A stretch of 45,302 nucleotides of DNA from NCBI GenBank assembly GCA_017303975.1, contig JAFLBG010000031.1, forward strand, positions 1 to 45,302. The letters run 5' to 3'. The stretch is from Bacteroidota bacterium (lineage in GTDB: Bacteria > Bacteroidota > Bacteroidia > JAFLBG01). The position numbers were made by a program, and so were the translations under genes. Under the pieces are notes generated by a model that ran no database searches, was not told where the DNA came from, and saw only the letters and a program-made list of their open reading frames with translations. This document shows positions 34,745 through 40,464 of the stretch, in pieces (positions within the stretch are counted from its first letter, which is position 1; each line of letters begins with the position of its first letter).

Positions 34745-36554
34745 TATTTGTAATAATTGTAACGGTATCTTCGTACACTTTTATTAAGTTTTGCTCGACT
34801 GCCGATGGAGCATAGCGAGCCATTTCACAGGTATTAAGCATTTGCAATAACGAACTTACCGACTCCTCTTTAACTTTCATTGAGTCCAATGTATTCTTTA
34901 TAGAATCTTTAGACAAATTAGAAATTGGAATTGAGAATTTGTCACTTAAATATCCGTACAAGGCTTTAAATATTTCATCGCAAAATAAATCTCTCTTATT
35001 CTCCTTTACAAATTGATTTGCTACCGACAATCTTTTTTGAGCTATCTTATTTGCTTTACGACTCTTAAGTGCGACAACATTACTATTTGCTTTATCTTGC
35101 GACCGTTTTACCAAAATAAGCGCAAGTGCCAAAAATCCAGGGAAGGCAATTCCTGCATAAAACAAACCACTTCCGAAGAAAAATTCATTTTGCTTTCTCA
35201 AACTAGCTGAATTTGTTTTGATATACCTGATATCACTCCCCAACTGCTTTACGCTCTCCTTTGTAACACTTGTAATAACAACATTTTTTGTATCATCCTT
35301 ATTATCTGATGGATCAACCTGTATAGAAAATTCAGGAGCAGGTAGTGTTACGTAGGACTTCTTTTCGGGATCGAAATATGAAAACGATAAAGCATCCAAC
35401 TTAAAAGTGCCCTGCTCTCGTGCAATTAACAAATAGTCGAATGTTTTAGATCCAGCAACTCCCGAGGAAGAAACGCTTACATTGTCGGTTACTTTCGGAT
35501 CATACTTCTCAAACTCTTGAGGAAAATTAACGGCCGGAGCATCTATCAATTTAAGATTACCTCTTCCAGAAATTGTATATACAAGATTAATAGCATCATT
35601 AACCTTCAACTTCTCTTTACTTAATTGAGTTTTCATAGTATAATTACCAACTGCTCCAGAAAAATCTTTTGGTTTATTCGCTTCCGGCAATGCACTAACG
35701 TCAATCTTTACAGGGCGGCTCTTTATCTTATACGAAACATCTTTGTATCCACCACCTCCAAAAAACTGATCGAAAATACTTTGAGGCGCATTACTACTTC
35801 TCTCTCTAACAATACAAGTAACTTCAACAGGTTCAATTTCAAGTGTACCGCTTCTTTGCGGAAACAAAAACACTTTTTTCAATTCTGCAACTTGATACAT
35901 AGCACCATCAATATTTTCGGTAGTCAATTCAATTTGCCCTTTACTTACCACATCTTGAGACCAAAAACCATTGTAGGATGGCAATTCATAATCCTGAAAT
36001 CCTCTTAAATTAAGGCGCGTATAAATTTTATGTGATACCATAATCTGCTCTCCTACATATACTTTGGTTTTACTTACGGTGGTTTTCGCAAACAAATTAT
36101 CATTTGCCGTTTGTTGAGAAGATGAATTTGAATTTCGCTGATTACCTCCGCCAGTACCCGCATTACCTGAACCTTTCACAACTTCGATAACCATAGAATT
36201 AGATTCTACTTTCTTCCCATCGGCATTCACAGAGGCGGGTGCTATGGTATACTTACCCTCTTTTTTTGCAGCAATAATATAAGAAAACGAAATAGACTGA
36301 GACATATTTCCATTTACAAATTGCATACTCTGCGACTGATTAGGACCCGAATAAACATCAAACTCATTTAATGAAGGCGCCTTAAAACTACTAGCAGATG
36401 TATTAATTGCAAACGTAATTTGAAACTGCTCTCCAACAGCAACTACGGTCTTACTGGCACTAGCTGTAAATTTCTGTGCATAAATACTTGTACAAAGCAC
36501 TATGTACAAAGTACAAAGTAACACAATGGTAATGTATCTATTTATCTGTTTCAT
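34725..36554 (-). CDS. batD: BatD: exported oxygen-tolerance protein
   Basis: 609 residues. The signal peptide (ITIVLLCTLYIVLCTSIYAQ) is followed by three Ig-like/beta repeats typical of BatD (about 30-440; KTVVAVGEQFQITFAINT, KVYVGEQIMVSHKIYT, KLKVNDAINLVYTISGRGNLKLID), a Gly/Asn/Ser-rich loop near 130-150, a transmembrane helix (about 462-485) and a cytoplasmic helical tail. BatD is part of the MoxR-VWA envelope complex. The signal-peptide codons are made of CTTTGTAC-type repeats (36491-36520). The upstream gap to batC is 82 bases with a repeat-like mosaic. The stop lies inside batE. Confidence 0.93.
   Translation of the reverse strand: MKQINRYITIVLLCTLYIVLCTSIYAQKFTASASKTVVAVGEQFQITFAINTSASSFKAPSLNEFDVYSGPNQSQSMQFVNGNMSQSISFSYIIAAKKEGKYTIAPASVNADGKKVESNSMVIEVVKGSGNAGTGGGNQRNSNSSSQQTANDNLFAKTTVSKTKVYVGEQIMVSHKIYTRLNLRGFQDYELPSYNGFWSQDVVSKGQIELTTENIDGAMYQVAELKKVFLFPQRSGTLEIEPVEVTCIVRERSSNAPQSIFDQFFGGGGYKDVSYKIKSRPVKIDVSALPEANKPKDFSGAVGNYTMKTQLSKEKLKVNDAINLVYTISGRGNLKLIDAPAVNFPQEFEKYDPKVTDNVSVSSSGVAGSKTFDYLLIAREQGTFKLDALSFSYFDPEKKSYVTLPAPEFSIQVDPSDNKDDTKNVVITSVTKESVKQLGSDIRYIKTNSASLRKQNEFFFGSGLFYAGIAFPGFLALALILVKRSQDKANSNVVALKSRKANKIAQKRLSVANQFVKENKRDLFCDEIFKALYGYLSDKFSIPISNLSKDSIKNTLDSMKVKEESVSSLLQMLNTCEMARYAPSAVEQNLIKVYEDTVTIITNIENEIA
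36491..36520. repeat. TACAAAG repeats inside the batD signal-peptide coding region
   Basis: TACAAAG occurs three times, at 36491-36497, 36505-36511 and 36512-36518, the last two directly adjacent. They encode part of the hydrophobic core of the BatD signal sequence, where the exact residues are free to vary. Words of the same kind (GTACAATG, CAAAGTA) occur in the hairpin at 2983-3037. Confidence 0.6.
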
Positions 36555-36636: not shown

Positions 36637-37317
36637 TTACCAGTCTTTATCAATATTCCTATCTCCCGCTCTCCCTTTTTGTTTTTTTAATTTTTCCTGT
36701 GTTTTCTTTTCATCGTTATTCAACGCTTCTAGCAAACGAGCTGCATCCTCTTTCGAAATTTTATTCTTCGCCTGTTGTTGCTGTTCTTCATTTTGTTTTT
36801 TCTCTTGCTCCTTTTGTTGATCCTGCTTATTTTGTTGGTCTTGTTTTTCTTGATTCTTGTTTTGGTCGTTATTTTTATTTTGTTGTTGTTGTTCCTTTTT
36901 TAGCATTTGTTGCGCATACGCCAAATTATATCTCGCATCTTGGTCTTCAGGATTATTTTTCAGTGCTTTCTTATAGGCATTTATACTTTCTTCGTACTTC
37001 TTGGTTTTCAAAAAAGAATTACCCAAATTATGGTAGGCCATTGCAAGGGAATCTTTAGGCATTTTCTTTGTAGTTACAACCTCAAACTGTTCCTGTGCTT
37101 CGGCATATTTACCTTGCTTATAATAGGCATCGCCTAAATTAAATAATGCTTTATAGTTGTCATTTTTTTTGGATAGTGCATCTTGGTACTTTTTTTCAGC
37201 CTCGTTATACTTTCCTTCATCATAATAACTATTGCCCTTACGCACCAAAGCTTTCTCTGTTTGGGCATTTAACAGACTTCCAATTAAAATAATAAATATG
37301 ACTAGCAGGTATCTCAT
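36637..37317 (-). CDS. batC: BatC: TPR protein with Gln/Lys/Asn-rich tail
   Basis: 226 residues. Signal peptide (LLVIFIILIGSLLNAQ), three TPR units (about 20-135; YYDEGKYNEAEKKYQDAL, LGDAYYKQGKYAEAQEQF, LGNSFLKTKKYEESINAYKKAL), then a low-complexity Q/N/K tract (about 138-185) and a basic helical end (ISKEDAARLLEALNNDEKKTQEKLKKQ). This is the BatC arrangement. It starts 37 bases after batB, across a heptamer tandem repeat, and batD follows after 82 bases. The tail may bind other envelope proteins, but that is unproven. Confidence 0.9.
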   Translation of the reverse strand: MRYLLVIFIILIGSLLNAQTEKALVRKGNSYYDEGKYNEAEKKYQDALSKKNDNYKALFNLGDAYYKQGKYAEAQEQFEVVTTKKMPKDSLAMAYHNLGNSFLKTKKYEESINAYKKALKNNPEDQDARYNLAYAQQMLKKEQQQQNKNNDQNKNQEKQDQQNKQDQQKEQEKKQNEEQQQQAKNKISKEDAARLLEALNNDEKKTQEKLKKQKGRAGDRNIDKDW

Positions 37318-37367
37318 TCTTAATTCTTAATTCTTAATTCTTAATTCTTAATTCTTAATTCTTAATT
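37316..37367. repeat. Tandem heptamer repeat (TAATTCT) between batB and batC
   Basis: Six perfect copies of TAATTCT at 37321-37362, plus partial copies on both sides (attct at 37316-37320, taatt at 37363-37367). The batB stop codon (37355-37357) lies inside the tract, and the tract ends at the batC start codon. Copy-number changes would alter the distance between the two genes and the last batB codons. Confidence 0.9.
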
Positions 37368-38407
37368 TCTTTATTATTCTCACCAAAAAGATTCAACTTT
37401 TTAATCCATAAACTTTTACGTTCGCCAATAAGAAATTCAATTAGTAGTAATAGCAATGCAGGTAAAGCAAAATATTGAAACTTATCGTCATAATCTGTGT
37501 ACATTTTACTCTCAAATTGCTTCTTATCCAACTCCCTCAATTGATTCAATAAAGAATTTAATCCCACATCGGAGTTAGTGGCTCTAACATAAGAACCATT
37601 TCCCGCTGCACTAATTTCTTGCAATGCAACCTCATTTAGTTTTGTGATAACGGTATTTCCATCTTTATCTTTTTTAAATCCAGTTTGAATATTGTTTTTA
37701 TAAACCGGTATTGGAGTTCCGTTTACAGAGCCGATGCCAATCGTATGCACGATTATATTCTTTTCTACTGCGGTTTTGGCAGAAGCAATTGCATCGTCCT
37801 CGTGATTCTCGCCATCGGTCAATATAATCAATGCTCTATTTTTGCCAACATCATCACCAAAAGATTCAATAGCTAAATCAATTGCTGCACCAACAGCAGT
37901 ACCTTGTGTAGGAACAATATCTGTATCTATATTTTGTAAAAACAATTTCGCAGCAGCGTAATCCGTAGTTATTGGAAGTTGAACAAATGCTTCTCCCGCA
38001 AAAACAATCAGACCTATCCTATCCCCCTCCAATTTATCTATCAATTTTTCAATAGCTTGTTTAGACCGAGTTAATCTGTTAGGCTGAATATCTTCCGCCT
38101 TCATACTGTTGGAGACATCTAAAGCAATTATAATATCTGCACCTTCTCTCTTTACCTCTTGCAAACGAGAACCAATTTGAGGATTCATCAAGACCAAGAC
38201 TAACAAAATAAATGCTAACTGAGTTATAATAAACTTAAACAACGGTTTATTTTTTGATTTCAATGGCATTAATCTTTCTACAAGAGAAGGATCTCCCAAA
38301 AGTTTAATGAGTCTCTTTTTTTGAAATACGTACACAAGATATAGTACTACAAAAAGAATCAGTAGCAAAAATCCATAAGCAAAATAAGTATGTTCGAATC
38401 TAAACAT
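37355..38407 (-). CDS. batB: BatB: membrane VWA-domain protein
   Basis: 350 residues. Two N-terminal transmembrane helices (about 8-28 and 57-77), then a von Willebrand factor A domain (about 85-285) with the metal-ion-dependent adhesion site DVSNSM, the threonine-containing PTQGTAVG and TDGENHED, and a C-terminal membrane helix (about 313-332). It is adjacent to batA, with a three-base gap. MoxR and VWA proteins act as chaperone-like pairs. The C-terminus NNKEIKN and stop codon fall in the heptamer repeat, so the last residues could vary with repeat number. Confidence 0.93.
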   Translation of the reverse strand: MFRFEHTYFAYGFLLLILFVVLYLVYVFQKKRLIKLLGDPSLVERLMPLKSKNKPLFKFIITQLAFILLVLVLMNPQIGSRLQEVKREGADIIIALDVSNSMKAEDIQPNRLTRSKQAIEKLIDKLEGDRIGLIVFAGEAFVQLPITTDYAAAKLFLQNIDTDIVPTQGTAVGAAIDLAIESFGDDVGKNRALIILTDGENHEDDAIASAKTAVEKNIIVHTIGIGSVNGTPIPVYKNNIQTGFKKDKDGNTVITKLNEVALQEISAAGNGSYVRATNSDVGLNSLLNQLRELDKKQFESKMYTDYDDKFQYFALPALLLLLIEFLIGERKSLWIKKLNLFGENNKEIKN

Positions 38408-39441: not shown

Positions 39442-40464
39442 TTAATCTTTAGTTTCTATTGCTTCACTCTTTACTTCCTCTTCTCGTTTTGTGCCATTTA
39501 CAAAATCAACAGCCAACTGCATAGACAATTCATTTTCATTAGGCAAAGGATTCTCTTTAGCAAATTTCACTAAATCGGCTAGCGTCAAAATTTGTTTTAA
39601 GCGTTGCTTGCTTTCTTCATCCATAACCATTGAACGCAGTTGAGCAAAAATTTCATCAGATGTTTGCTCCGGAGCATTAATTTTAAATCGTTGCTGCAAA
39701 TACAACCTCAAAATATCGGATATAGCAGAATGGTATTGCTTGTATTTGCCCTGCTGCCACAATTTTTCATTATTAATTTGCTCTAATGCAGCTAACGCAG
39801 TTATATGTGGCGGCACTTTAGGGTCCGACTTAACGACAATGGTTGTCTTACGACTTTTCAAATAACGTTTTATTAAATAAATAACCAACGTTAGTAGTGC
39901 TAGTATACCAACCACCCATTTTACATAAGGAATTAACTCTCTAAAATCGAATGGTTCATCCATAGGAGGCTTAATGTCACGTATAGCTTGTGTTGTATCA
40001 ACTTGCACATTATTCACCTCTAACAGCAGAGCCTCCGTTTCAAAAACCTTTGACGTGTCATTATTCAAGATAAATTTAAACGGGGGTATGGCATAATAGC
40101 CCGAATCAAAGGATGTAATAATTAAATTTTGAGATTGTTGCAACCAATAAGGATCGTCCTTATTTGGTATTGTTGTATCTATTTTGGTTTTATTTACAAT
40201 TTCAATTTGTTTAATAATCGTATCATTCAATGCAGGCCACTGAATTGCAACATTACCTTTATCCGCTCTGTACTGAATAGTTACATGAACAACGGTCTGC
40301 TCTCCAATTAAAATACTATTGGTATCAAGTGTTGCCGACACTTTAACATCTTGAGCGGCAAATACGCCCGGCATAGCCAATAAAATAACTAGTAAAATAT
40401 ACCTACCCACAACTCTATAGGAATTGATATAATTAAAAACCATATGTATTTTACTGTTACTCAT
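39442..40464 (-). CDS. BatD-like membrane protein of the Bat operon
   Basis: 340 residues. A signal or anchor segment (about 19-37: VVGRYILLVILLAMPGVFAAQ, shown in part), an extracytoplasmic beta-rich domain (40-165; DVKVSATLDTNSILIGEQTV resembles the BatD repeat opening), a transmembrane helix (about 180-205: VVGILALLTLVIYLI) and a cytoplasmic helical domain (225-320; LWQQGKYKQYHSAISDILRLYLQQR) recalling DUF4381-like proteins of MoxR operons. A second ATG seven codons in (MVFNYINS) is an alternative start. It lies between DUF58 and batA, as in other Bacteroidota Bat operons. It has no standard symbol. A role as another membrane partner of the VWA proteins is inference from context. Confidence 0.8.
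   Translation of the reverse strand: MSNSKIHMVFNYINSYRVVGRYILLVILLAMPGVFAAQDVKVSATLDTNSILIGEQTVVHVTIQYRADKGNVAIQWPALNDTIIKQIEIVNKTKIDTTIPNKDDPYWLQQSQNLIITSFDSGYYAIPPFKFILNNDTSKVFETEALLLEVNNVQVDTTQAIRDIKPPMDEPFDFRELIPYVKWVVGILALLTLVIYLIKRYLKSRKTTIVVKSDPKVPPHITALAALEQINNEKLWQQGKYKQYHSAISDILRLYLQQRFKINAPEQTSDEIFAQLRSMVMDEESKQRLKQILTLADLVKFAKENPLPNENELSMQLAVDFVNGTKREEEVKSEAIETKD

Follow-up and report, generated by a model that had tools for sequence, protein, structure and literature searches.

A perfect heptanucleotide array joining batB and batC in a Bacteroidota genome is probably a slippage-expanded, tolerated spacer

The batB and batC genes of a Bacteroidota bacterium (GenBank assembly GCA_017303975.1) are joined by a perfect tandem array of a seven-base unit. 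We consider it probable that the array is a heptanucleotide spacer of a co-directional gene pair that was expanded by slippage and has been kept because it is almost harmless. The window analysed here is contig JAFLBG010000031.1 over its full length of 45,302 nucleotides, and positions are those of its forward strand.

Tandem Repeats Finder reported a period-7 array at 37316-37367 with 7.4 copies, 100% matches and a score of 104, which makes it the top-scoring tandem repeat of the window (the runner-up, a separate array, scores 51). Its 52 nt correspond to 7.43 perfect copies of a unit that reads AATTAAG on the mRNA (minus) strand and ATTCTTA on the plus strand. The preliminary description had placed the repeat exactly, but its count of six perfect copies plus partial ones was too low. 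Judging from this length, perfect lag-7 identity across 45 positions is far beyond chance. With at least three perfect tandem copies and no shorter period, the array is a heptanucleotide simple sequence repeat.

Both flanking genes lie on the minus strand. The batB gene (37355-38407) encodes a VWA-domain protein of 350 aa and batC (36637-37317) a TPR protein of 226 aa; the Pfam matches bear out the gene names given earlier. Pfam recognised a MoxR-type AAA protein, DUF58, BatA, the VWA protein (BatB), the TPR protein (BatC) and BatD, confirming a bat/MoxR operon. A 340-aa ORF at 39442-40464, between the DUF58 gene and batA, had no Pfam match at E 0.001. As had been described, the array holds the batB stop and reaches the batC start. 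The last codons of batB are GAA ATT AAG AAT TAA, and the first base of the array is the final base of GAA. The array therefore encodes the last three residues, IKN, and the stop codon (37355-37357, minus strand), which lies in unit 2, counted from the 5′ end of the array. The spacer of 37 nt that follows (37318-37354, minus strand) consists entirely of array, whose final two bases, in the last partial unit, are the A and T of the batC ATG (37315-37317, minus strand). A hydrophobic BatC N-terminus can be read from this ATG.

The preliminary description held that each slippage event of seven bases would change the frame of the batB end, and with it the last BatB residues, as well as the batB-batC spacing, so that the tract could tune or switch batC translation. 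We placed 0 to 12 units in silico between the window's own flanks. BatB ended in NNKEIKN and a stop at all counts from 2 to 12, since the stop lies within unit 2. An in-frame stop was found 12 nt upstream of the batC ATG at the same counts, the 20 nt preceding the ATG were identical at 3-12 units, and stops occurred in all three frames of the array from 3 units up. These constancies follow from the geometry of the junction: a unit that carries TAA, whose length of seven is not a multiple of three, with the stop on its 5′ side and the start on its 3′ side, yields the same BatB and a stop just upstream of batC, and therefore no fusion. Coding consequences were seen only at 0 or 1 unit, where BatB had no stop in the tested stretch; at 0 units, as read from the bases, batB and the batC ATG share a frame. 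Unless the array collapses almost completely, only the batB-batC spacing can vary, as 2 + 7(n − 2) nt (2, 9, 16 and so on up to 72 nt for 2-12 units). Phase switching by reading frame was thus excluded, and at 2-12 units copy number switches neither frame nor start, as it would in a phase-variable contingency locus. The tune-or-switch reading proved mostly wrong: the change of spacing in 7-nt steps stands and the frame switch does not. The alternative offered alongside it, a neutral tract, fits best, neutrality being presumed here.

The start region of batC within the array is plausible, not exceptional, as a site of initiation. None of 200 dinucleotide shuffles was as weakly structured as the RNA of the junction (z +2.49). 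The array supplies A at −3 of batC but T at −6, −12 and −13. In F. johnsoniae, initiation is helped by A at −3 and by low structure, according to the accessible part of PMC6847099, and, similarly to that species, the 523 start regions sampled from the source genome are A-rich upstream, at −10 to −13, with little G. A single copy of AATTAAG does not act as a common start motif in the source genome, being present in only 7 of these 523 upstream regions. We suggest that the array would have grown by tandem slippage in the batB-batC spacer and would have been retained there since it is nearly harmless. In doing so it may have replaced a tight or overlapping junction in the source lineage, and, as a result, ribosomes finishing batB would count for less in batC translation than the weakly structured, A/U-rich start region of batC itself. 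A change of copy number would then alter batC at most gradually.

Orthologous junctions were compared in 80 named loci, the window's own locus and 29 class-level loci, with L054 (off the contig end), L030 and L033 (no batC call) and four loci that duplicate a named record (L115, L116, L119 and L127) dropped. Among the 102 other junctions there were 34 ATGA overlaps and 26 other overlaps; gaps measured 0-15 nt in 21, 16-60 nt in 9 and over 60 nt in 12, the last class being an upper bound because about five of its members (L017, L064, L070, L108 and L126) look like possible shortened batC calls. Period-7 arrays of score at least 11 at or just after the junction were found in three of the 102 (TTCTACC in L006, CTTGATA in L028 and TTGGCTA in L111), and arrays of other periods reached the same score in L018 (period 14) and in L007 and L038 (period 8); an array call at the L010 junction is a run of N. 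None of these junction arrays shares the unit AATTAAG. Three Draconibacterium loci, L023, L024 and L028, have three different spacers, with an above-threshold array in L028 only. The junction is thus labile, as would be expected if its spacer is tolerated, and a perfect heptad array is one state among many. We also considered batB-batC as a special hot spot for heptads and rejected it: three period-7 arrays and one of period 14 in 102 junctions are no clear excess over co-directional spacers generally (46 arrays in 895 such spacers, with stretches and thresholds that differed between the two scans). The heptads of L111 and L006 lie inside the called batC start, no more than about 120 nt past the batB stop, and may be translated near the BatC N-terminus.

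We next turn to spacers in general, which were delimited by a simple longest-ORF caller (at least 80 aa), not by a gene finder. In co-directional spacers of up to 120 nt from the 80 named loci, which are mostly Bacteroidota (a few titles name Chlorobiota, Ignavibacteria or Kapaibacterium), excess identity at lag 7 was +8.3 points (z 22.9), with +6.0 at lag 14 (z 12.1) and +3.4 at lag 21 (z 6.0). Because these loci all surround batB, they do not provide a random selection of spacers. Divergent spacers of the same loci had no lag-7 excess (−0.5, z −1.4). The co-directional effect was weaker in 40 class-level loci, three of which repeat named ones (+2.8, z 6.1). When arrays of score at least 12 with a best period of 7 or 14 were pooled over 118 genome units, with three repeat loci dropped, 46 were found in 96.5 kb of co-directional, 3 in 42.4 kb of divergent and 7 in 18.4 kb of convergent spacers, and 25 of the 118 units had at least one. 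The co-directional value was at or below the divergent one in 0 of 5000 bootstraps and at or below the convergent one in 5% of them. Without one strong contributor, genome G105, there were 28 co-directional, 1 divergent and 2 convergent arrays. Two patterns hinted at by G105 were tried and did not prove general: an attraction of heptads to starts (of the 46 co-directional arrays, 19 were nearer the start, 26 nearer the stop and 1 tied) and an A-rich-before-start, T-rich-after-stop polarity (mean A-T skew 0.09 at starts and 0.16 at stops). As judged by eye, heptads are inverted at the spacer ends of L038 (2796-2870) and L271 (G105) and could fold into a hairpin; L036 (6741-6854) and L018 (1941-2019) carry long degenerate heptad mosaics whose unit drifts along the spacer.

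STRR sequences are the short tandemly repeated repetitive heptanucleotide families of cyanobacteria. AATTAAG resembles them in the source genome in that the unit recurs in tandem at several sites and is scarce elsewhere. The exact 14-mer AATTAAGAATTAAG occurs at 6 distinct places in the source genome, with about 0.03 expected in its non-coding DNA under a Markov-3 model, and was matched once across 8 other genomes. Reversing the pattern gave 3 further matches in two of these 8, but reversal is no control here, since read circularly it returns the unit itself. When up to one mismatch in 16 was allowed, the source genome had 10 distinct places, the window included; nine of them fall within spacers or overlap them, and the tenth (C45:5469) is just inside a called ORF. 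Among 15 permuted units compared in the source-genome sample, AATTAAG ranked first for near-perfect pairs (6 against 4 for the next), and at 21 nt it tied with two other units at 7; a comparison unit, AAAATTG, was matched once in the source genome, and 5 of the 8 others had 1-3 matches. The placement of AATTAAG sites varies (sense, antisense, divergent), and batC is the only one of the 6 places with at least two exact copies where the array itself extends to a called start. In a sampled quarter of the source genome there were three heptad arrays of score at least 12, of which only one is long and perfect. An intergenic region of the source genome (L091, 12077-12129) holds a decayed array of about eight GAATTAA-like heptads.

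A second unit behaved similarly in G105, which is a picked case because AACTGAA was chosen after L038 showed it at several junctions. A search for AACTGAA pairs returned 38 rows, representing 21 places, in G105 and a single match across the 8 other genomes; for the reversed unit, AAGTCAA, there were 25 matches in G099, and three further genomes had 7, 4 and 1. At 18 of the 21 places the array's right end was no more than 27 nt from the boundary of a called ORF, often immediately ahead of a start, a placement that did not generalise to the 46 pooled arrays.

Several other explanations of the array have to be weighed against a tolerated spacer. A perfect tract of 7.43 copies at a gene junction, with spacing that would move in 7-nt steps, is what one might look for in a contingency locus in which slippage tunes batC translation through the distance from the batB stop and gives varied BatC levels, and since ATGA overlaps are found in many relatives (34 of 102), spacing could matter through coupling. 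We regard this as quite unlikely: the frame and the start stay constant at 2-12 units, relatives range from overlaps to gaps over 60 nt, and their batB-batC junctions have no array in common. To our knowledge, Bat proteins are also not in the usual surface-exposed, phase-variable class. Selection of the array as an insulator that puts stops in all frames between batB and batC would account for TAA in all three frames at 3 or more units and for a batB stop that comes from the array itself, and 27 of the 46 co-directional arrays have stops in all sense frames, compared to 23% of control windows. A similar excess is present on the antisense strand (21/46 against 21% of control windows), so most of the stop excess follows from periodicity in AT-rich DNA, and selection for sense-strand stops was rejected on the small difference between the strands. 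Relatives with overlapping genes, moreover, manage without an array, and we hold this explanation to be very improbable. Little sense-strand stop bias and no general start preference are what tolerated tracts would show.

The recurrence of the unit is harder to accommodate, since AATTAAGAATTAAG at 6 places against 0.03 expected is not predicted by independent slippage alone; the boundary placement in G105 also looks more ordered than neutral drift, and lag-7 periodicity is weak in short co-directional spacers of the source genome itself (+1.6, z 3.5), below lag 2 (+2.5, z 5.8). The heptads could be sites for an RNA- or DNA-binding protein specific to the genome, and the AATTAAG sites a small candidate regulon; MacGregor made such a proposal for TAACTGA in Beggiatoaceae in the accessible part of PMC4679880. 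The genome bias of AATTAAG and AACTGAA and the G105 boundaries agree with this. The variable placement of AATTAAG sites, the lack of a general start preference, units that differ at every orthologous junction and the scarcity of strong arrays in the sampled quarter do not, and we find such a role improbable. Two-copy AATTAAG sites may instead be chance seeds at AT-rich gene ends, of which only that of batB expanded. The codons ATT AAG AAT TAA (Ile-Lys-Asn-stop) already contain nearly two heptads and, as read by eye, two unrelated genes, at C21:4053 and C43:27272 (L137 and L144), end in IKN and a stop like BatB because both run into the AATTAAG repeat. Under codon independence about 0.32 such ends are expected per 3,100 genes, a round figure (the sample's 698 gene ends per Mb gives fewer), so chance seeding may explain some of the recurrence. 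Three ends were seen, however, and the sites at C5, C8 and C45 are not gene ends of this form; chance seeding as the whole account is unlikely. Such seeding would bear on why the unit recurs and does not conflict with a slippage-expanded spacer.

The kind of array described here, as a heptanucleotide repeat and in its likeness to TAACTGA repeats, is already known. Heptanucleotides are the most abundant category of long repeats in most genomes, which may reflect the stretch touched by DNA polymerase (Mrazek 2007, as cited in PMC4679880); heptamers in at least three copies had a median category of 0.75 in Bacteroidetes and of 0 in 18 of 23 groups (Huang and Mrazek 2014, PMC4060949, Table 2), and heptameric repeats have been called little studied (Rehm 2015, PMC4692102). 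The batB-batC array is similar to these long simple sequence repeats in its unit of seven, its intergenic position and its more than three copies; the surveys (Mrazek et al. 2007; PMC4679880, PMC4692102 and PMC4060949) are, in their accessible parts, genome-wide counts that do not deal with this junction, with spacer orientation or with genome-specific units in Bacteroidetes. Several tandem heptanucleotides share one genome in Calothrix (cited in PMC4692102), as in the cyanobacterial STRR families generally, which differ from the present case in phylum and units. Direct repeats of TAACTGA are known from Beggiatoaceae, some Cyanobacteria and five Bacteroidetes (MacGregor 2015, PMC4679880), some of the last with other heptamers nearby. 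In BOGUAY they form 169 sets, mostly just before starts and sometimes overlapping an upstream stop. The batB-batC array likewise is an intergenic heptanucleotide that overlaps an upstream stop and has stops in all three frames, but it is not of the TAACTGA type, its unit being AATTAAG, and it has 6 places with at least two exact copies in its genome against the 169 sets of BOGUAY. A search of the literature, largely without subscription journals, found no paper on batB-batC heptads or on lineage-specific spacer heptads in Bacteroidota.

The accessible part of PMC4679880 leans towards a single unit that spread horizontally; in the present data the units differ from genome to genome. It is possible, if doubtful, that gene junctions in Bacteroidota harbour families of tandem heptads that are specific to each genome, largely absent from divergent, promoter-bearing spacers and spread by copying, each lineage having its own units and the array of the window being one expanded member. 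If units are copied among junctions, beyond independent slippage, the TAACTGA repeats would exemplify something more general than one motif passed on by horizontal transfer. That heptads are genome-biased and occur in operon spacers but seldom between divergent genes offers a testable route to why seven is favoured and how units spread. The batB-batC array also indicates that a perfect, probably mutable tract can span a stop and a start yet stay coding-neutral, which counsels caution: repeats at gene junctions are not automatically phase switches. Within the same operon, a 2.4-copy GTACAAA heptad is located at 36504-36520, inside codons 1-20 of batD, a region that looks by eye like a signal peptide.
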